Source: Paracoccus chinensis
GTDB lineage: Bacteria; Pseudomonadota; Alphaproteobacteria; Rhodobacterales; Rhodobacteraceae
Assembly: GCF_900102885.1 (NCBI RefSeq)
Contig: NZ_FNGE01000004.1
Span: forward strand, 124,001 to 188,000
Direction: 5' to 3'
DNA: 64,000 nucleotides
Below the pieces are notes generated by a model. The model was given only the letters and a program-made list of their open reading frames with translations, searched no databases and was not told where the DNA came from. Positions 53,852 to 63,265 of this stretch are shown here, one piece after another. Numbering within the stretch: the first letter of the stretch is position 1; each line of letters begins with the position of its first letter. The translations under genes were made by a program, and so were the position numbers.

Positions 53852-56140
53852 TTACATCGCCTCGAGCCGCACGGGCACGCCCTTGTAGGCCGGGGTCTTG
53901 GACATCCGGTCGTGCAGGCCCACGGGGATGACCGGGTTCACCTCGGGGTAATAGGCTGCGACGCAATGGTCGGGCAGGTCGTAGGCCGTCACCGTCAGAC
54001 CTGCCACGCCGCGCGGATGGCCGTCCTCCTCGGCGCAGACCAGACGCACCTTCTGCCCCTCGGCCAGTCCGGCCCGCGCGATCTCGGCCGGGCTCATCAG
54101 CACGATCATGCGGTCGCCCGACAGCCCCCGCAGCCGGTCGGAAAAACCGTAGATCGTGGTGTTGAACTGGTCGTTCGAGCGCAGCGTGACCAGCGTGTAT
54201 TCCCCCTGCCCCAGCGGCCGGTTCAGCCCCGAGTTGGAATCGGGCACTGAAAACTCGGCCTTGCCGCTCTCCGTCTGCCAGCGGCGTTCCCGCGCGGCAT
54301 TGCCCTTGTAGAAGCCGCCCGGCTCATGCATCCGCCGTTCGTAGTCCGCGAACTTGTCGGGCCACAGCGCCTCGATGCAGGCGCGGACGCGGGAATAGTC
54401 GGCCACCCAGTCGTCCCAAGGGACGTCGGGGTTCGGTTCCAGCGTGGCCTTGGCGATGCCTGCCACGATCGCGGGCTCGGACAGCAGCGTCCGCGCGGCG
54501 GGCTCGTTCCGGCCCAGCGAGGCATAGATGTGGGACAGCGAATCCTCGATGGACACGACCTGAGGGCCGGACACCTGCTCGTCCTCCTCGGACCGCACGA
54601 GGCAGGGCAGAAGCCAGGTCTCCCGCCCCGGCAGCAGGTGCGAGCGGTTGAGCTTGGTGGCCACGTTGACGATCAGGTCCAGATCCGTCCAGTGCTCCTT
54701 GACCCGGCCCGAATCCGGGATCGAGATGGCGAAGTTGCCGCCCATCTGCAGGAAGCCCCTGACCGAGCCGTCGATGACGCCCTCGGCCGCCTCGACGGTG
54801 GTGTGGCCGGTCTCGCGCGGTGGGGTGAAGCCGAACATCCGCCCCATCTCGTCCAGGGGCACCAGCTCGGGCTTTTCCGAGATGCCGACCGTGCGCTGCC
54901 CCTGCACGTTGGAATGCCCCCGCACCGGGGAAATCCCCGCCCCCAGCCGTCCGAGGTTCCCGCGCAGCAGCATCAGGTTGACCAGCATCCCCAGCGTCTC
55001 GCCGCCCCGGACATGCTGGGTCAGGCCCATGCCATACATGGCGATCGCGCGCTTGGACCGCGCATAGGCCGTGCCGACCTCGCGCAGGTGGTCGCGCGAC
55101 AGGCCCGACAGCGCCTCGATCTCGTCCCAGCCCGTCGCCTCGGCATGGGCCTTGAGCGCCTCGTAGCCTGTGGTGTGCTCGGCAATGAAGCCGTGGTCGA
55201 GGATGCCGCCCTCGGCCGTTTCCAGTTCAAGCACCCGCTTGATCAGCCCGAGGATGGCGGCCATGTCGCCGCCCGGCCGCACCTGCAGGTAAAGGTCCGA
55301 GATCTCGGTCGAGCCGCCCAGCATCTGGGTGATCTGCTGGGGATTGCGGAAGCGCAGCAGGCCTGCCTCGCGGACGGGGTTGAAGGTGATGATGGTGCAG
55401 CCGCGCTGCTTGGCCTGCTGCAGCGTGTGCAGGAAGCGCGGGCTGTTCGAGCCGGTGTTCTGGCCGAAGAACAGCATCAGGTCGCAATGGTCGAAGTCCT
55501 CCAGCACGCAGGTGCCGACAGGCGAGCCGATGAACTTCTTCAGCGCCACGCTGGTCGTCTCGTGGCACATGTTCGAGGAATCGGGCAGGTTGTTGTGCCC
55601 GTACATGCGCGCGAAAAGCTGCCACATGAAGGATGTCTCGAGGCTCGCGCGCCCCGAGGTGTAGAAGACGACCGACTTCGGGTCCATCCGGCGCAGGGTG
55701 GCGCCGATGGCCGCGAAGGCCTCGTCCCAGGTGGTTTCCACATAGCGGCGGGTGCCGGGGTCGAAGCGCATCGGGTGGGTCAGGCGGCCGAGCGACTCCA
55801 GCTCGTGGTCGGACAGTTCGCGCAGTTCCTCGACCGTGCGGCTGGCGAAGACCTCGGGGTCGCAGGTGCGCCGGTCCAGGTCCCAGATCGTGGCCTTGGC
55901 GCCGTTCTCGCAGAACTCGGCCAGGTGGGGCTTGGCGGGCTTGGCCCAGGCGCAGGAGGTGCACATGTGGCCATTGGGCTTGTTCTGGCGGCGCAGCGTG
56001 TCCAGCACGGCGGCGGTCGGCGGCTGGCCCACCATGACCTTGCTGATGCCTTCCATCGAGCCCCAGCCGCCGGCAGGTCCCCCATAGTAAGGCGTGTCAG
56101 GATCCTGCTGCGTTTCGGGATCGATTCGCTTCTGGCTCAT
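53852..56140 (-). CDS. Molybdopterin oxidoreductase of the FdhF/YdeP family
   Basis: The 762-residue protein is a bis-molybdopterin enzyme of the YdeP branch. Near the N-terminus Cys60, Cys63 and Cys77 (CTSCAW, EFCENG) are visible, an incomplete pattern for a 4Fe-4S site. SSNMCHETTSVALKKF places Cys192 where formate dehydrogenases have the metal-ligating Cys or Sec. GQNTGSNSPR, MYGMGLTQHVRGGETLGML, RGHSNVQGQRTVG and the C-terminal dinucleotide-binding domain follow. No twin-arginine signal is present, so it should be cytosolic. E. coli YdeP aids acid resistance; substrate is not settled. The start at 56140 follows a weak site. A Crp/Fnr regulator is encoded upstream in the same direction. Confidence 0.85.
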   Translation of the reverse strand: MSQKRIDPETQQDPDTPYYGGPAGGWGSMEGISKVMVGQPPTAAVLDTLRRQNKPNGHMCTSCAWAKPAKPHLAEFCENGAKATIWDLDRRTCDPEVFASRTVEELRELSDHELESLGRLTHPMRFDPGTRRYVETTWDEAFAAIGATLRRMDPKSVVFYTSGRASLETSFMWQLFARMYGHNNLPDSSNMCHETTSVALKKFIGSPVGTCVLEDFDHCDLMLFFGQNTGSNSPRFLHTLQQAKQRGCTIITFNPVREAGLLRFRNPQQITQMLGGSTEISDLYLQVRPGGDMAAILGLIKRVLELETAEGGILDHGFIAEHTTGYEALKAHAEATGWDEIEALSGLSRDHLREVGTAYARSKRAIAMYGMGLTQHVRGGETLGMLVNLMLLRGNLGRLGAGISPVRGHSNVQGQRTVGISEKPELVPLDEMGRMFGFTPPRETGHTTVEAAEGVIDGSVRGFLQMGGNFAISIPDSGRVKEHWTDLDLIVNVATKLNRSHLLPGRETWLLPCLVRSEEDEQVSGPQVVSIEDSLSHIYASLGRNEPAARTLLSEPAIVAGIAKATLEPNPDVPWDDWVADYSRVRACIEALWPDKFADYERRMHEPGGFYKGNAARERRWQTESGKAEFSVPDSNSGLNRPLGQGEYTLVTLRSNDQFNTTIYGFSDRLRGLSGDRMIVLMSPAEIARAGLAEGQKVRLVCAEEDGHPRGVAGLTVTAYDLPDHCVAAYYPEVNPVIPVGLHDRMSKTPAYKGVPVRLEAM

Positions 56141-56232
56141 GGCTACACCCCCTGTGGCTCCGCAGGCGCGGGCTGCACCTGCGGGAAGGGAAGGCCCCGG
56201 TCTTGCCCGGGGTTCCCCCAAGGGGCGAATTA

Positions 56233-57027
56233 TCAGGACCGGGCCGCAACCTGCCGCAGGCGGCCTTGCGGTGCGGTCATGACGCCGCCCCGCGACACTT
56301 GGGCCAGCCGCTCGGCGGTTTCAGGCGGCAGGTAGAGGTAGTCCCAGTCGAATTGGGCCTGCCGGAACAGCCGCGGCAGGTCCATGACCTCGACCCGGCC
56401 ATCCAGGAACAGGCAGATCCGTTCCTGCCGCAACTCGCCCAGCATCCGGTTGGCATGGACCGGAGTCATGCCGCAGGCCTCGGCCAGGTCCGTCTGGCTG
56501 ATGGGCAGAGGGCAGCCGTTCAGCCCGCAAAGCCCGCGCGCATATTGCCGGACCAGCGTTTCGGCAAAAAGACTGGCGATCCGCGGGCGCCCCGTCAGCC
56601 GCCCGTTGCGGAAGGTCCAGTACCGCTCGACCGCCGCGTCCAGCAGCGTGACCTGCCACAGCTTGTCGTAAAGGTCGGGCGCATCCTGCCGCAGCGCCGA
56701 GATGGCCTCATGGGGCAGCGCGCTGACCGTGGCGGGGGCGAGGGCCTCGATCTCGTGGTCGCTGTGGCCCAGCCGGCAGGTCGGCAGGTCGACGAAGTCG
56801 CCGGGGATCAGCAGGCCCAGAAGCTGCCGCCGCCCCTGGTGGTCGGCACGATAGCGGCCGGCGAAACCTTCCAGCAGATACGAGCAGGCGGTCACGGGCA
56901 CCCCGGCCTGCGCCAGCTTGTGCCGGGGCCGGACGGTCGCCGCAGGCCCCTGAAGGGAGGTGACCAGTTCCGCCTCGGAATGCGAGAACAGCTGCGGATA
57001 GGCGTGATGAAGGTCGATTCCCGGCAA
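56233..57027 (-). CDS. Crp/Fnr-type transcriptional regulator
   Basis: The protein of about 264 residues has an N-terminal cyclic-nucleotide-like roll (LLEGFAGRYRADHQGRRQLLGLLIPGDFVDL), a dimer helix and a C-terminal helix-turn-helix (PISQTDLAEACGMTPVHANRMLGELR). FNR-type N-terminal cysteines are missing. It resembles the GerE-like Crp proteins common in Rhizobiales and Rhodobacterales. No ATG fits: TTG at 57027 has AGGGGAG six bases upstream and is chosen, with another TTG at 57108 possible. It lies just upstream of the YdeP-type gene on the same strand and may control it. Confidence 0.82.
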   Translation of the reverse strand: MPGIDLHHAYPQLFSHSEAELVTSLQGPAATVRPRHKLAQAGVPVTACSYLLEGFAGRYRADHQGRRQLLGLLIPGDFVDLPTCRLGHSDHEIEALAPATVSALPHEAISALRQDAPDLYDKLWQVTLLDAAVERYWTFRNGRLTGRPRIASLFAETLVRQYARGLCGLNGCPLPISQTDLAEACGMTPVHANRMLGELRQERICLFLDGRVEVMDLPRLFRQAQFDWDYLYLPPETAERLAQVSRGGVMTAPQGRLRQVAARS

Positions 57028-57192
57028 TCCCTTCTCCCCTGCCCGGCGGCGTGTCCGGGTAGCTGCATGTCTCAGGAAAGGGGTGAAGAAACAGGAAGCT
57101 GCCGTCAACCTTGCCTGACGCTTCCCTGCAACGGCAGGGAAGGGAATTGGTTCATCCCGGGCAGCCCGCCTGCCGCAGCGTCAGATGCAGGC

Positions 57193-57238: not shown

Positions 57239-59929
57239 TCAGTTAGCGGCAGGCACGGCGTCCGCGGCGTTGCGCATCAGGAAGTCGGTGACAAGGGCCG
57301 CTTCCTCCTCGTCGAGGCCTGCGCGCGGGAACATCGACGGGGTGATGCCGCGCCATTGCAGCTGGGTGAAGCCCTTTGGATCGCGAGGCCCGTGGCAGAC
57401 GGTGCAGCGCTGGTAGAAGATGCGCTCGCCCGGCTCCATGTTCTCGTAAAGCGCCTCGACCAGGCCCGCGACGCGGTCCAGCCCCAGCTCGCCCTCGTCC
57501 ACGGCGGCGAACTGGTAGTCGGTCAGGATCGCGGGCGGCTGATAGGCTTGGTTGGGACGTTCCGCATCCTCGCACTTGGCGACGGAGGCCACGCAGGTGT
57601 TGGCGATGGTCGCCTGCGTCAGCCCCGAGGCGGGGCGTTCCGAGGTGATCCAGTTGATCTGCCCCGAGTTGCAGCGCCCCTTGCTGTCGAGGTCCGGCCA
57701 GACGCCTTCGTAAAGCGACATGACGCCCGGCATGATGTCGTCCGACAGCACCGCCCCCGCGATGATCGCGCCGCGATCGTTGCGGATTTCCACGAGGTCC
57801 CCGTCCGCGATGCCACGCGCCTCGGCGTCCTGGCGGTTGATCCGCACCGGCTCGCGCCCGTCGATCTTGTAAAGTTCGCGCAGCCGGGCCGAGTTGTCCA
57901 TCTGGCTGTGCAGCCGGTACCAGGGATGGGGGCTCACGACATGCAGCTGGCCTTCCCCGGCATTGCCCAGGTATTCCAGCGGCTCCTGCCAGACGGGCAT
58001 GCCGGGGTTGTCGGCCACCTTCATGTCGGCGATCGAGCTGCAGAACATCTCGATCTTGCCCGAGACCGTGTGCAGCGGGTTCTTTTCGGGGTCCTCGTAG
58101 AAGGCGCCGTGGCGGACCCACTTGCGCGCCTCGGGGGGCGCGGGCTGGAGCGCATAGCCCTTTTCCCAGAACTCCTCGAAGGGCGTGGTCTTGGACGCGC
58201 CCGAGCGTTCATAGGCCGCGCGGATGTGGTCCATGAAGTCCAGGCTGTCGGTGAACTGCGCCCAGAGGCCCATCTTGTCGGCCAGCGCCTCGAAGATCTC
58301 GTAGTCGCTCTTCGACTCGCCGAGCGGCTCGATCACCTTCTTCATGGCGTAGATCTTGTCGTTGGAATAGGTGCCGCCGACCGAGATGTCGTCGCGCTCC
58401 ATCGTGCCCGAGGCGGGCAGGACGATGTCGGCCCAGCGCACGGCGGCCGTCCACCAGATGTCCTGGCTGACGATCGTGTGCAGCTTGCCGAAGGCCTTAA
58501 GCAGCCGGTTCAGGTCCTGCTGGTGCGAGACGAAGTTGTTGCCTGCGTTGTAGATCATCTTCACGTCGGGATAGGTGCGGGTCTGCCCGTTGTAGAAGAA
58601 CTCCTTGCCCGGGTTTTCCAGCATCTCGACGATGCGGCTGGCGGGGCAGAGCTTGTCCACGAGGTTCTTGCCCGAGGACAGGCCCGTGGGGGTGGGCTGG
58701 CCCGACTGGGGCATGCCGCCGTTGCCATAATGCCAGCTGAAGCCCACGCCCTCGCCCGGCTTGCCGATCTTGCCGACCAGCGCGGCGAAGTTGATGATCG
58801 CGTGGTGGGTCAGCTCGCCGTGGTGGGCGCGCTGCAGCGACCAGGCGCCTGCGAACTGGGTGCGCGAACCGGCGAACAGTTCGGCCAGTTCGCGGATCCG
58901 GTCGGCCGGGATGCCGGTGATGGCGGCGGCCCAGTCGGGCGTCTTGGGGGTGCCGTCGTCCCGGCCCTGGACATAGGCGATCCAGCGGTCGGCCCCGACC
59001 GTGTATTTCGCCATGTAGTCCTTGTCTTCCAGCCCCTTTTCCAGAACGTGGTGGGCCATCCCGAGGAACAGCGCGATGTCGGTGTTGGGGACGATCTGCA
59101 CCCAGTCCGCGTTCAGGTAGTAGTCCGAGGCGGTGCGCTGCGGGTTGATCGAGATGAAGCGGCAGCCCGCGTCGCGGATCTCGGCCCAGGGGCCGTACAT
59201 GCCGTGGTCGGCGACCGTGAACTCGATCCGGTTGTTCTTGATCGGGTCGCAGCCGACCAGCACGAAGACCTGCGTGTTGTCGCGCACGACCTCCCAGGCG
59301 GTCTGGGGCGAATAAACCTCCATGTCGCCGATGATGTGCGGCAGCGCGACCTGGCTCGCCCCGGCCGAGAAGTCGCCCTGGGTGATGGTGCAGCCGCCGA
59401 TCAGGTTGAAGAAGCGCTGCTGCATGACGTTCGGGCGGAAGGACCCGGCATTGGCCCAGCCCCCGTAGGACGAGCTGAAGATCGCCTCGTTGCCGTTTTC
59501 CTCGATGGTCTTGAGGATCGCGTTGCCGGCCAGCGCCAGCGCGGTGTCCCAGTCCACGCGGACGAATTCCTCGCGCCCGCGCAGTTCCGGCTTGGTGTCG
59601 CCGGTCTGCCAGCCGTCCAGGTAGGACTTGCGGACCATGGGATAAAGGATGCGGCTTTCGTCATAAACGCGATCCACCGTGCCCAGCATCAGCATGTCGG
59701 TGGGCTGGTGGTCGAGCTCGGTCACCGGAGAGATCGAGGTGAGGCGCCCGTCGCGCACGACCGCCTCGAAGGGCCCGAAATGCGTGGCGTGGAACACCCG
59801 CTGTCCGTGCGAGTTGGGGTCGATCGCAGCAAGGGCCGAACTGTTCATCAGCCGGGCGGCGCCCAAGGCCCCCACCGCCACGACACCTGCCTGCATGAAG
59901 CTGCGGCGCGAGATCTGACATGCGGTCAT
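57239..59929 (-). CDS. torA: S-/N-oxide reductase (TMAO/DMSO/biotin sulfoxide type) with fused C-terminal cytochrome c
   Basis: The 896-residue periplasmic enzyme has a twin-arginine signal (CQISRRSFMQAGVVAVGALG) and the TorA/DorA molybdenum fold: SSSYGGWANAGSFR, DFSAGASQVALPH with Ser188 as the expected molybdenum ligand, and YSPQTAWEVVRDNTQVFVLV. Family members are usually about 780-830 residues. Here about 95 more residues (from about 800) carry CTVCHG (Cys842, Cys845, His846), QLQWRG and a Met in PSMFPR, like the last heme domain of the TorC/TorY electron donors. The donor domain thus seems fused to the reductase. GGAAGGAA precedes the ATG at 59929, and an FNR-like box lies upstream. The exact substrate is open. 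Confidence 0.88.
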   Translation of the reverse strand: MTACQISRRSFMQAGVVAVGALGAARLMNSSALAAIDPNSHGQRVFHATHFGPFEAVVRDGRLTSISPVTELDHQPTDMLMLGTVDRVYDESRILYPMVRKSYLDGWQTGDTKPELRGREEFVRVDWDTALALAGNAILKTIEENGNEAIFSSSYGGWANAGSFRPNVMQQRFFNLIGGCTITQGDFSAGASQVALPHIIGDMEVYSPQTAWEVVRDNTQVFVLVGCDPIKNNRIEFTVADHGMYGPWAEIRDAGCRFISINPQRTASDYYLNADWVQIVPNTDIALFLGMAHHVLEKGLEDKDYMAKYTVGADRWIAYVQGRDDGTPKTPDWAAAITGIPADRIRELAELFAGSRTQFAGAWSLQRAHHGELTHHAIINFAALVGKIGKPGEGVGFSWHYGNGGMPQSGQPTPTGLSSGKNLVDKLCPASRIVEMLENPGKEFFYNGQTRTYPDVKMIYNAGNNFVSHQQDLNRLLKAFGKLHTIVSQDIWWTAAVRWADIVLPASGTMERDDISVGGTYSNDKIYAMKKVIEPLGESKSDYEIFEALADKMGLWAQFTDSLDFMDHIRAAYERSGASKTTPFEEFWEKGYALQPAPPEARKWVRHGAFYEDPEKNPLHTVSGKIEMFCSSIADMKVADNPGMPVWQEPLEYLGNAGEGQLHVVSPHPWYRLHSQMDNSARLRELYKIDGREPVRINRQDAEARGIADGDLVEIRNDRGAIIAGAVLSDDIMPGVMSLYEGVWPDLDSKGRCNSGQINWITSERPASGLTQATIANTCVASVAKCEDAERPNQAYQPPAILTDYQFAAVDEGELGLDRVAGLVEALYENMEPGERIFYQRCTVCHGPRDPKGFTQLQWRGITPSMFPRAGLDEEEAALVTDFLMRNAADAVPAAN

Positions 59930-59958: not shown

Positions 59959-60003
59959 ATGATATGGGCCCGCGGGGCGGCCCCGGTCCATGATCTGGAT
60001 CAA
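59959..60003 (-). promoter_or_regulatory. FNR-type box and -10 upstream of the Tor-type reductase
   Basis: On the minus strand TTGATCCAGATCAT (60003-59990) differs by one base from the FNR consensus TTGAT-N4-ATCAA. TATCAT at 59964-59959 is a good -10. The box centre is about 44 bases from the predicted transcript start and 67 from the ATG, the usual class II layout. It also lies about 150 bases before the divergent gene at 60148. Confidence 0.75.
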
Positions 60004-60147: not shown

Positions 60148-60660
60148 ATGGTCACCATGTCTCGTCTCTTGGGTCCGGCGGCGGTGGCGGCCCTGCTGGC
60201 CACGCCCGTCCTTGCGCAGCAGAGCGCTCCGGCGCCCGCCGGTGGCTCACCCGACGCGCCCGCCGCAACCGCGCCGGTGGCTGATAATCCTGCGCCCGAT
60301 CAGCCCGATGCCGTGGCCGTTCCGACCGCGCCCGCAGCGGGCGGCGGCGAGCCTGCCGACCCTCACCTGATGCTGCCCGCCCTGACCGGTGGCCCCGATG
60401 GCTCGCCCACCGCCCTGCGCGGCAACCCCCTGCCCGGCACCTCGACCTCGATCCCCACGGCCAACCCGGCCGGCGTGCCGCCCCTGCCCGAGCGCCAGGG
60501 CCAGGCCGCGGAACGCGAGGACACGGGGATCGAGGGGCAATGCGACCCCGTGACCAGCATCGGCTGCCCCGCCCTGCGCACGGACGGCGCCACGCAGACC
60601 GTCAGCCCCGATCCCGCTGCCCCCGGCGGCTCTGCCGCGACCAGCGGCGCCACGAACTGA
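60148..60660 (+). CDS. Secreted Ala/Pro-rich protein of unknown function
   Basis: The 170-residue protein has a signal peptide (SRLLGPAAVAALLATPVLAQ) and a low-complexity mature part rich in Pro, Ala, Gly and Asp. Its only distinctive feature is a short cysteine pair in GIEGQCDPVTSIGCPALR, which could form a disulfide. GGAAGGAGAAGGAAG precedes the ATG at 60148; an ATG at 60157 is also possible. It diverges from the Tor-type reductase and faces the response-regulator gene across a strong hairpin. No family recognised. Confidence 0.65.
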   Translation: MVTMSRLLGPAAVAALLATPVLAQQSAPAPAGGSPDAPAATAPVADNPAPDQPDAVAVPTAPAAGGGEPADPHLMLPALTGGPDGSPTALRGNPLPGTSTSIPTANPAGVPPLPERQGQAAEREDTGIEGQCDPVTSIGCPALRTDGATQTVSPDPAAPGGSAATSGATN

Positions 60661-60708: not shown

Positions 60709-61803
60709 TCAGGTCGCCGGCCGGGACGGGGGACCTGCCTGTCCCTTCGGGTCGGTGCAATGCGGACATTCAGCCAGGGGCACGCTGCGCAGCAGCAGCA
60801 TCAGGTCGGCCTGCCGCGAGGTCATGGTCTTCTGGAAGATGTTGCGAAGATGGAAGTTCACGGTCGTCAGGCTGATCGCCAGCTGGTCCGCGATGTCCTT
60901 CAGCCGCAGCCCCCTAGCCAGAAGCTCGGCCACCGCGGCCTCGCCCGCCGTCAGCCCGGCCGCCTGCGCGATAAGGCGGACGCCCAGCCGCCGCGCCGCG
61001 TCGAAGCCGAGGATCAGCGCCATCATCATGGGATCGCCCGGCCGGACCGGCAGCGAGCCCAGGTCGGACAGGACGACCAGCCTCCAGCTGTCCTGCGGAA
61101 GATCCTGGCTGATCACGGCGGCCGAATGGTGGCAGCCGCCCTGGCGCAGGCTGTCATAGGCCGCGTTGATGGACTGCATGTAGTCGGCCTCGCCGATGGC
61201 ATGGCGCAGCCAGTTGCGGGTCGGCGGGGAAAGCTCCTGGGACAGTCGCCGCGCGGCGCGGTTCGAAAAGCAGATGCGTCCGCGCATGTCCAGCAGCACC
61301 AGCCCGAAATCCAGTCGGTTCACCGCCCGCACCAGCCCCGCCACGGCATCGTCCTGATGGGGATGCCCGTGGACCGAGGCGATCCGCGCCGCCAGCCGCA
61401 GTTGCGCGTCCACGGCCGCCACCAGCAGGTCATAATCCACCGGCTTGACCAGGTAGTCGTCGGCTCCTGCCCGCTTGCCGGCCAGGATGTCCGACCGGTC
61501 CGCGAAGCCCGTCAGCAGGATGAAGGGCACGTCGTTCAGGTCCGGCCGCGTCTGGCGCACCCGGCGCAGAAAGGTCATCCCGTCGATCCCGGGCAGGGTG
61601 ATGTCCGACAGGATCACGTCAGCGCGGACACTGTCCAGCCGGGCCAGCGCGGCCTCGGCGCTGGTTTCGGCCAGAACGTCATAGCCCGCCTCGGTCAGCA
61701 CCGCCGAAAGATCCTCGAGCAGGTCCGGCTCGTCCTCGCAGACGAGGATGAGGGCGCGCTCTTCCTCGCCTTTGGCCGGGCTGGGGTGCTTAGGGGCGGC
61801 CAC
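60709..61803 (-). CDS. Response regulator with REC, PAS-like and LuxR-type DNA-binding domains
   Basis: The 364-residue protein has a receiver domain (about 17-135; phospho-acceptor Asp67 in VILSDITLPG, Lys in YLVKPVDYD), a middle PAS-like segment (about 150-270; FGLVLLDMRGRICFSNRAA) and a C-terminal LuxR-type helix-turn-helix (LTAGEAAVAELLARGLRLKD). The middle domain resembles a sensor and is uncommon in simple NarL-type regulators. It starts with GTG at 61803 after AGAGGTG, overlapping the stop of the kinase gene. It should act with that kinase. Confidence 0.88.
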   Translation of the reverse strand: MAAPKHPSPAKGEEERALILVCEDEPDLLEDLSAVLTEAGYDVLAETSAEAALARLDSVRADVILSDITLPGIDGMTFLRRVRQTRPDLNDVPFILLTGFADRSDILAGKRAGADDYLVKPVDYDLLVAAVDAQLRLAARIASVHGHPHQDDAVAGLVRAVNRLDFGLVLLDMRGRICFSNRAARRLSQELSPPTRNWLRHAIGEADYMQSINAAYDSLRQGGCHHSAAVISQDLPQDSWRLVVLSDLGSLPVRPGDPMMMALILGFDAARRLGVRLIAQAAGLTAGEAAVAELLARGLRLKDIADQLAISLTTVNFHLRNIFQKTMTSRQADLMLLLRSVPLAECPHCTDPKGQAGPPSRPAT

Positions 61804-63265
61804 GGCGCACCTCTGCCGGGCCGGGCCGCACGGGCGCGTCGGGGCTGACATACCGGGCTCCCGTTCCTGCCTCGGCCAGCGGAAGCACCAGGTCGAAGCG
61901 CGCACCGTGCTGTCCGTCGCTGGCCACGCGGATCGTTCCGCCCTGGATCTCGGCCAGCCTGCGGGCCAGCCACAGGCCGACGCCACTGCCGGGATGGCCC
62001 ACCGCGCGTTCGCCCCGCCAGAAGCGCTGGAAGATCGCCTCCTGGTCGGCCGGAGGAATCCCCGCGCCCTGGTCGATGACCGAGATGACGGCCATCCCCT
62101 GCGCCTCGGCGGCCCGCAGCTCGACCGGGCTGCCGCTGGGCGAGTATTTCAGCGCATTCTCGACCAGGTTGGCCAGCGCGTGAAAGGCAAGGCTGGGATC
62201 GCAGAGGAGGCGCAGCCCTGCCGCGTCCGTCGGCAGGACCAACCGCTGGCGCCCTTCCCCCATCCCTTCATGCGCCAGGATCATGGCGACCAGATGCTGC
62301 AGCGGGACCGGACGGGGATGGATCGAGGGCGCACCGCCCTCGACCGCGCCCGCCAGCATGGCCTGGTCCATGAAATGCAGCACCTGGCTGATCTGCCGCC
62401 GGATCCGCAGCAGGGCCGCGCTGTCCTGGGGACGTTCGGCCAGATCGGCGCGCGACAGCATCCGTTGCGCGGCGCTGTCGATCACCGTCAGGGGCGACCG
62501 CATCTGGTGCGCGATCACGGCGGCGATGTTGCGCAGGTAGGCCGCGGAATCGCAGGCGCGCTGCAGATCCCGCTGAAGCTTGCGGTCGTCCTGGACGCGG
62601 CGCAGCGTCCACAGCAGGCACAGGACGAGCCACGCCAGTCCCACGAGCCCCGCCAGCACCGCCGCCGCCCCCAGCACAAGGATGCGGTAAAGCTGACCTG
62701 CCCTTTCGACCTGCTGCGCCTCGTGGGCGCTTTGCACGCGCGCCCCGGCCCGGCTCAGCGCCCGTTCCAGTTGCGTCAGCCGGGCGGCAAGGCCCGCCAG
62801 ATCGCCCCGGCTGTAGACGACGCGCGCCGGGTCGCGGTCGCGCAGTTGAGTGATGGCGGCGGCGATCTCGTCGTCCAAGGCGGCGGCGGCAGCGGAACGG
62901 TCCCGCAGCACGGGCTCCAGCTGGTCCAGCCGGCGCAGCAGCAGGTGGTAACGGCGGATGAATTCCTGCCGGGCGGCGGGGTTCTCGGCATGGTCTTCCG
63001 CGACCTCGTTCAGCCGCAGGGCCTCGACCGCCGCCTGGACGTAAAGCCGGGGCATGTCGGCCACCGGGTCCCGCAGGGGGCGCGCCTCCATCCGCCACAG
63101 CTGCACCGAGGCGAAGACCGTCACCGACAGCGCCGCCGCGATCAGCAGAAAGGGCAGCATCAGGCCGGGGGAAAAGAACAGCGCGTGCAAGGGCAGATGC
63201 CCCCGGACCTCGGCCTCGTCTTCGGGCGCCGCAGCCGATGCCCGGTCAACCACCTCGCTCGTCAT
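61790..63265 (-). CDS. Membrane sensor histidine kinase
   Basis: The 491-residue kinase has TM1 at about 33-55, a periplasmic helical region of about 135 residues, and TM2 at about 195-220. The dimerisation segment carries His253 in AVIAHQMRSPLTV, followed by NLVENALKYSPSG (N box), VIDQGAGIP (G1) and GSGVGLWLARRLA (G2). No HAMP domain is obvious between TM2 and the His. It is transcribed with the response regulator, whose start overlaps its stop. The neighbouring Tor-type reductase makes TMAO/DMSO sensing a possibility, but the periplasmic part was not recognised. Confidence 0.9.
   Translation of the reverse strand: MTSEVVDRASAAAPEDEAEVRGHLPLHALFFSPGLMLPFLLIAAALSVTVFASVQLWRMEARPLRDPVADMPRLYVQAAVEALRLNEVAEDHAENPAARQEFIRRYHLLLRRLDQLEPVLRDRSAAAAALDDEIAAAITQLRDRDPARVVYSRGDLAGLAARLTQLERALSRAGARVQSAHEAQQVERAGQLYRILVLGAAAVLAGLVGLAWLVLCLLWTLRRVQDDRKLQRDLQRACDSAAYLRNIAAVIAHQMRSPLTVIDSAAQRMLSRADLAERPQDSAALLRIRRQISQVLHFMDQAMLAGAVEGGAPSIHPRPVPLQHLVAMILAHEGMGEGRQRLVLPTDAAGLRLLCDPSLAFHALANLVENALKYSPSGSPVELRAAEAQGMAVISVIDQGAGIPPADQEAIFQRFWRGERAVGHPGSGVGLWLARRLAEIQGGTIRVASDGQHGARFDLVLPLAEAGTGARYVSPDAPVRPGPAEVRRGRP

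Follow-up and report, generated by a model that had tools for sequence, protein, structure and literature searches.

This report concerns a gene in a 64,000 nt stretch of the Paracoccus chinensis genome (assembly GCF_900102885.1, contig NZ_FNGE01000004.1, positions 124,001 to 188,000), referred to here as the window. The gene lies on the minus strand at 57239-59929, with its ATG at 59929 and its stop codon at 57239-57241, and its product is near certainly a TorA/DorA-type molybdoenzyme that carries a monoheme c domain at its C-terminus. The reading frame runs unbroken through 896 codons with zero internal stops, in agreement with the original prediction that a single fused gene occupies this interval. 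The protein opens with a twin-arginine translocation (Tat)-type signal region (residues 1-36, SRRSFMQ; 59822-59929, minus strand like all parts of the gene given below), and its N-terminus, MTACQISRRSFMQ, is of the twin-arginine type. The Pfam TAT_signal match is below cut-off (E 0.023); of 81 loci scanned, 68 have a twin-arginine motif in the expected position. The fused molybdenum enzyme appears to be periplasmic.

The bis(molybdopterin guanine dinucleotide) (bis-MGD) molybdenum catalytic part spans residues 45-786 (57572-59797), as delimited by matches to Pfam, NCBIfam TIGR00509 and PDB entries. Three Pfam models score over cut-off (Molybdopterin PF00384, 171.7 bits; Molydop_binding PF01568, 78.5 bits; Molybdopterin_N PF18364, 45.2 bits), and the molybdopterin and dinucleotide-binding domains place the enzyme in the dimethyl sulfoxide (DMSO) reductase (Mo-bisPGD) family. 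Residue Ser188 (59366-59368) aligns with the GDYS of a DorA-like protein (L018), TorA and TorZ and is invariant in 42 of 42 sequences; the serine at this position is the molybdenum ligand in DMSO reductase. The aligned stretch at residues 44-60 is free of cysteine, so that the protein shares the character of TorA, DorA and BisC, namely the serine and no N-terminal iron-sulfur cysteines. It scores 846.5 bits with TIGR00509 (bisC_fam), below the cut-off of 1017.55, and 628.8 bits with the TorA equivalog TIGR02164, below the cut-off of 1465; it also stands outside the E. coli TorA group in the tree described below. Its active-site loop, YGGWxxAG, differs from those of both TorA and DorA. An AlphaFold model of the full protein (pLDDT 81, pTM 0.84) is of lower confidence at residues 811-830 and at 841-850, around the heme motif. 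The solved structures that match it best are MtsZ, DMSO reductase and TorA; Haemophilus influenzae MtsZ is the closest, with DorA and TorA only slightly behind.

The chain continues well beyond this catalytic part. Pfam catalytic domains stop at residue 779, and phmmer matches to solved reductases of DMSO and trimethylamine N-oxide (TMAO) end at 785-799. A linker (residues 787-829, 57443-57571), recognized from alignments and from low model confidence at 811-830, leads to the monoheme c domain (residues 830-893, 57251-57442), which profile and fold matches relate to the C-terminus of TorC and TorY. In 35 unfused relatives the chain extends 2-33 residues past the aligned catalytic region, and 30 of them have 16-24 such residues; of the approximately 95 extra residues claimed earlier about 90 are borne out. 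All of the tail motifs that had been named were located: CTVCHG (842-847), QLQWRG (856-861) and a candidate distal heme ligand, Met866 (57332-57334), which aligns with a Met of TorC and TorY. The heme-attachment motif proper, CTVCH, comprises residues 842-846 (57392-57406). All 42 of the 42 full-length sequences have C842, C845, H846, W859 and M866, and a chance occurrence of CxxCH is ruled out by its invariance together with the Trp and Met. The tail therefore has the sequence character of a c-type cytochrome (CxxCH plus distal ligand), and heme would be attached covalently at CTVCH.

Several comparisons indicate a likeness of the tail to the last heme domain of TorC and TorY, as first proposed. 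The NCBIfam TorC model (TIGR02162) matches residues 833-893 with E 3.7e-5 (23.2 bits; the whole-protein cut-off is 478). A profile built from 12 tails recovers the C-termini of E. coli TorY (6e-12) and TorC (4e-10), in a database of five proteins only, and the alignment superposes the CxxCH, Trp and Met. The same profile gives 28-30 bits for TorC C-termini and 26-35 bits for eight stand-alone small cytochromes of a gammaproteobacterial family (f188), which have no TorA-type gene in their 1.5 kb flanks. Because these stand-alone cytochromes match the tail about equally, 'TorC-like' is a good description of the tail rather than proof of its origin. The proposed domain search returned the molybdopterin domains but not the cytochrome: the isolated tail scores under the Pfam gathering score with both Cytochrom_C (20.0 vs 21.3 bits) and Cytochrome_CBB3 (20.3 vs 27), and it is under the cut-offs within the whole protein too. 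In structure prediction, the full model matches molybdoenzyme folds, and the tail shows a tentative likeness to small c-type cytochromes. When modelled alone (pLDDT 82.6), the tail resembles DHC (2fwt, Z 7.6 over 59 residues) and the sulfite dehydrogenase heme subunit SorB (2blf_B, Z 5.1), the best Foldseek match having E 0.055; the likeness to small c-type cytochromes is that of a predicted model.

To determine the spread of the fusion, we searched with the whole protein in 295 genomes of the family, a 385-genome sample of the class and a 398-genome sample of the phylum. Fused genes, full or partial, were found in 11 of the 295 family genomes, in 5 of the class sample (three new) and in 4 of the phylum sample (one new). 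In the family search, every match of at least 54% identity either bears the tail or is an internal fragment of a fused gene, while unfused matches reach 46% at most. A scan of genomes from 84,980 species with a tail alignment yielded 191 candidate stretches, of which 179 were confirmed and the best 80 kept as named loci. The query included part of the linker and the patterns held CT[VL]CH or SMFxxAGL, so unfused or motif-less forms may be present among the other 99. The 80 loci represent 77 genome records, with three loci from one genome and two from another, and 19 of the loci are shorter than 14 kb. The tail is joined to a catalytic part in 79 of the 80, the remaining locus (L130) being cut by a contig end. 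CxxCH plus Met is present in 80 of 80, a count that is partly built in because the loci were fetched by patterns holding one such motif. A frame error, or a separate cytochrome gene, is ruled out by the single open frame, by the fusion in 79 of 80 loci and by the family matches of at least 54%.

Open reading frames of at least 880 codons occur in 70 of the 80 loci; among the ten shorter ones, four run into a contig end and six are broken or shortened. In Sedimentitalea nanhaiensis (L121) and in two other loci (L073, L143) the gene is broken or shortened away from contig ends, which suggests either that it is dispensable in some strains or that these are assembly errors. Most loci belong to genera of the Rhodobacteraceae and Roseobacteraceae, joined by Pseudovibrio, Cohaesibacter, Kiloniella, Azospirillum and Moritella. 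The closest of 41 aligned relatives are from Pelagivirga sediminicola (90%) and Paracoccus sanguinis (87%). A tree of the catalytic part was built from 62 rows (60 different), comprising 27 fused and 35 unfused proteins including E. coli TorA and TorZ; it includes 16 named loci from the set of 80, and the short rows L010, L015, L016 and L024 were removed beforehand. A branch 0.95 changes long, supported at 100/100, separates all 27 fused proteins from the unfused ones, a pattern most simply explained by a single ancient fusion that then spread. The fusion is also present, over nearly its full length, in six plasmid records. Five of them annotate it as 'molybdopterin-dependent oxidoreductase' and the sixth lists no feature there; the records say just this because the tail scores below the Pfam cut-offs.

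It had also been noted that neither a TorC nor a TorD gene adjoins the fused gene, and this holds for the flanks and for the whole genome. In 80 + 11 flanks, tblastn gave zero matches to TorC, for which positive controls worked, and zero to TorD, where E. coli TorD itself served as the sole positive control. At 99.98% completeness, the window's genome lacks any match to PF03264 (TorC, NapC, NirT) or PF02613 (TorD), and the locus accordingly is not a torCAD system, in which TorC and TorD are encoded with torA. PF03264 is likewise unmatched in 9 of the 15 genomes with the fusion (hereafter fused genomes), the window's included, and six of these nine are at least 90% complete. This absence alone is common, since only 44 of 290 genomes of the family at large have PF03264. 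The telling contrast is local, beside the gene, rather than genome-wide. A PF03264 gene lies within 5 kb of 8 of 12 unfused TorA/DorA matches and of 0 of 15 fused genes (Fisher p 2e-4), where the 12 are the family-search matches that reach the signal region (query start 14 or less), one genome supplies three of them, and three of the fused genes are on short or ending contigs. Three genomes (G125, G210, G625) carry both forms, and in these a torC-sized PF03264 gene stands beside the unfused one only.

The relatives share a recurrent neighbourhood. Near the fused gene in the 80 loci are a TorR-like regulator (56), a TorS-like kinase (54) and a TorT-like protein (53). For one scanned example of each, the TorR and TorS models score best but under their cut-offs, whereas a Moritella TorT is over cut-off; TorT is so annotated in two plasmid records. 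Mostly downstream are moeA (33), a DUF2478 gene (34) and moaA (35). The DUF2478 protein (L119:8654-9178 and relatives), found in 34 of the 80 loci and often amid molybdenum cofactor genes, plausibly has a role in molybdoenzyme maturation. A complete tor island is present on a Leisingera caerulea plasmid (L183; NZ_CP081094.1, 1073-15736), where the row reads torT, kinase, regulator, fused enzyme, molybdotransferase, DUF2478, moaA, pseudoazurin and CMD protein.

Upstream of the fused gene in the window, a pattern scan identified an FNR-type box, TTGATCCAGATCAT (59990-60003, minus strand), that starts 74 bases before the ATG and is one of 2 matches in the window, with 0.29 expected. Among the 67 of 81 loci that could be scored, boxes with at most two mismatches occur at -90 to -60 in 36, the window included, compared with 1.2 in shuffles (maximum 5 in 200). 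The scan also fires at -300 to -270 in 23 of 67 loci at two mismatches and in 4 at one mismatch; judged by coordinates, that stretch would fall inside torR where torR is present. Boxes are commoner where Tor genes are lacking, both at one mismatch (9/15 vs 5/52, p 1.4e-4) and at two (13/15 vs 25/52, p 0.009), although these p values are only a guide because the loci are related. The presence of FNR-type boxes upstream points to anaerobic control.

Pseudoazurin genes provide a link to a possible electron donor. By phmmer they are present in 12 of the 80 loci, several of which are near kin. In 11 the gene is downstream on the same strand as the fused gene, directly adjoining it in three, and L114 has its copy 5.3 kb away on the other strand. 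Seven of the eight examined with NCBIfam are over cut-off, and one (L139) is below (88.2 vs 109.85). The window's genome has a pseudoazurin gene on another contig and also encodes cytochrome bc1; cytochrome c1 is present in 14 of the 15 fused genomes, including every one of the 12 with a completeness of at least 90%.

The reading we favour, with a probability of roughly 0.58, is that the protein is a periplasmic N- or S-oxide reductase of the TorA/DorA kind, with TMAO the likeliest substrate, and that its own heme receives electrons from soluble carriers. Electrons would pass from quinol to cytochrome bc1 (or another donor), from bc1 to pseudoazurin or a cytochrome c, and from this soluble carrier by way of the heme c of the tail to Mo bis-MGD and the oxide. 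An electron-entry domain like the fifth-heme domain of TorC would in this manner be built into the catalytic chain, and TorC would not be needed because the covalent tail would take over the docking job of the membrane cytochrome. We infer the attachment and loading of the heme, the substrate, the donor and the direction of the reaction. The original prediction of a soluble cytochrome c or cupredoxin donor is supported indirectly: the window's genome lacks TorC and NapC and has bc1 and pseudoazurin, and linkage is seen in 11 of 80 loci and also in the Leisingera caerulea plasmid record. Pseudoazurin, however, is not a universal donor, as 11 of the 15 fused genomes, including one of the same genus (G023), have none over cut-off and 68 of the 80 loci have none near the gene. 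With only 4 of the 15 fused genomes having it over cut-off, a cytochrome c would be needed for this role in the others.

The scarcity of pseudoazurin is one of several observations that weigh against this scheme. Another is thermodynamic. According to Garg et al., ubiquinol-driven, bc-coupled TMAO reduction is clearly unfavourable, since ubiquinol (+90 mV) cannot readily drive TMAO reduction (+130 mV) via a bc complex against the proton-motive force (PMC6195509). No MenD is over cut-off in the 15 fused genomes (best 69.9 vs 244.2 bits), the futalosine route not having been searched; the MenD profile does match at E <= 0.001 in all 15, always under cut-off, and we read these matches as related thiamine pyrophosphate enzymes. 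The puzzle would dissolve if the donor were not bc1-linked, the substrate not TMAO, the heme unusually low in potential, the quinone not as it seems, or the direction reversed, and it is because of this problem that the joint mechanism is rated no higher despite the near-certain architecture. The catalytic loop, differing as it does from those of TorA and DorA, makes transfer of the substrate by homology weak. TorT/S/R-like neighbours are absent at the window, which thus has no TMAO-regulated TorTSR system (torT, torS and torR beside the reductase), and also in its nearest kin (L067-L072); no good TorT is found elsewhere in the window's genome (best 40 bits), and none is over cut-off in the 15 fused genomes, although 8 score 194-296 bits. 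A PF02613 (TorD-like) protein exists somewhere in 13 of the 15, none of them encoded within 5 kb of a fused gene. With only 2 of the 15 lacking PF02613, the absence of TorD is no mark of the fused group.

Finally, six of the 15 fused genomes encode PF03264 proteins, which are possible donors. This lends some weight to an alternative that we take seriously while thinking it unlikely, in which the same enzyme receives electrons from a membrane quinol dehydrogenase (NapC/CymA-like or unrecognized) and the tail simply stands in for the fifth heme that a split TorC lacks. Electron flow from ubiquinol to TMAO without a bc step would be thermodynamically acceptable on the potentials quoted in PMC6195509. 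The nine fused genomes without PF03264, with the nearly complete genome of the window among them, argue against such a dehydrogenase, as does the absence of PF03264 near the fused gene.

Soluble carriers such as pseudoazurin and cytochrome c have potentials above that of the TMAO/trimethylamine couple. Because such a carrier pool lies above this couple, donation by soluble carriers would favour a substrate of higher potential or an oxidizing direction. One doubtful extension is that a whole branch of TorA-like enzymes no longer couples to the quinol pool and instead exchanges electrons with high-potential soluble carriers, either with a substrate potential above that of TMAO or with oxidation of a thioether or tertiary amine feeding denitrification or oxidases. 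That the enzyme is simply a thioether or tertiary-amine dehydrogenase, passing electrons via its heme to pseudoazurin or cytochrome c, seems to us improbable. Electrons would run downhill from a couple near +130 mV to a carrier of high potential, and the linkage to pseudoazurin and the lack of TorC in the window's genome are consistent with it, but the TorT/S/R-like genes of most relatives and the FNR-type boxes point to oxide sensing and anaerobic respiration, and the homology is to reductases. Slightly less probable again is a periplasmic repair enzyme, acting on methionine sulfoxide or another S-oxide and not respiratory. Its appeal comes from H. influenzae MtsZ, the closest fold match, which we take to be a methionine sulfoxide reductase, and from Campylobacter concisus BisA, which PMC10653797 describes as paired with a soluble monoheme cytochrome in the repair of methionine sulfoxide. 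The nearly equal matches to the DorA and TorA folds count against repair, as do the TorT/S/R-like and molybdenum cofactor genes of the relatives.

Oxide reduction through a tethered heme would have close parallels in known systems. In Campylobacter jejuni, as described in PMC6195509, TorA (Cj0264) receives electrons from the soluble monoheme TorB (Cj0265), fed by QcrABC, and there is no TorC. That system is thus similar in combining a TorA-type enzyme with a monoheme domain like the C-terminus of TorC, a likeness that for Cj0265 rests on its description, and it differs in that TorB is separate and the quinol is menaquinol; the present enzyme has the domain fused, and MenD is not over cut-off in any fused genome. 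The statement that known systems place this domain in a separate cytochrome of the membrane is incomplete: it holds for E. coli TorC, but C. jejuni TorB is a separate soluble monoheme protein. E. coli TorCAD and TorYZ, whose catalytic parts have approximately 37% identity to the fused enzyme, differ in that the domain is attached to a tetraheme cytochrome in the membrane. A 2024 study reports that the TorC C-terminal domain feeds TorA yet shows no significant binding alone, the tetraheme part docking instead, and one of its models puts the domain about 35 angstroms from Mo (PMC11727998). By analogy, the fused enzyme could be viewed as the logical third form after TorC and TorB, with the domain tethered to the enzyme.

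Rhodobacter DorA gives the best sequence match (1eu1) and shares the aligned Ser and the Tyr of the active-site loop; it differs in having no heme domain and a YGWKSxG loop in place of YGGWxxAG, and DorA-like rows fall outside the fused group. In NirS (cytochrome cd1) and the cytochrome-c-fused copper nitrite reductases, a tethered c-heme is the entry point for soluble carriers; the likeness is confined to this, as the catalytic domains are unrelated. Sulfite dehydrogenase SorAB pairs a Mo enzyme of a different family with a dedicated small c-heme partner as two polypeptides, the partner being the one (2blf_B) whose fold the tail model resembles. Each module is known, and what is new, as far as an open-access search shows, is their tethering in one chain and the pseudoazurin link. 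The original prediction had considered that homologues might share the domain as a well-described norm; close homologues do share it, but no description of the single-chain fusion or of the pseudoazurin link was found in open-access titles and abstracts, among the matches listed, which does not establish absence from print.

The fused enzyme unites in one natural polypeptide the contact that TorA and TorC make as separate proteins, and a structure would let the geometry of electron transfer be solved directly. It also makes testable a bioenergetic question, namely how oxides are reduced in bacteria without detectable TorC or genes for the MenD route to menaquinone. A c-type heme domain on a Tat-type molybdoenzyme would presumably have to meet the demands of both Tat export and cytochrome c maturation, which raises a question of biogenesis. 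Automatic annotation hides the fusion in dozens of genomes because the tail is under the Pfam cut-offs.

Other genes surround the fused gene in the window. A Crp/Fnr-family regulator (56233-57108, minus strand) adjoins it and is probably not an oxygen-sensing iron-sulfur FNR, because its FnrL score is low (60 bits vs a cut-off of 300) and it has no N-terminal cysteine cluster. The second gene downstream on the same strand (53852-56176) encodes an FdhF/YdeP-family molybdoenzyme (TIGR01701, 875 bits, over cut-off) that is not among the 45 commonest neighbour clusters of the relatives. A divergent gene upstream (60148-60660, plus strand) encodes a small Pro/Ala-rich, secreted-looking protein with no Pfam match. 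Also upstream, 60709-63265 (minus strand) encodes a histidine kinase and a response regulator with a LuxR-type helix-turn-helix, distinct from TorS and TorR; a long stretch separates the receiver of this regulator from its helix-turn-helix.

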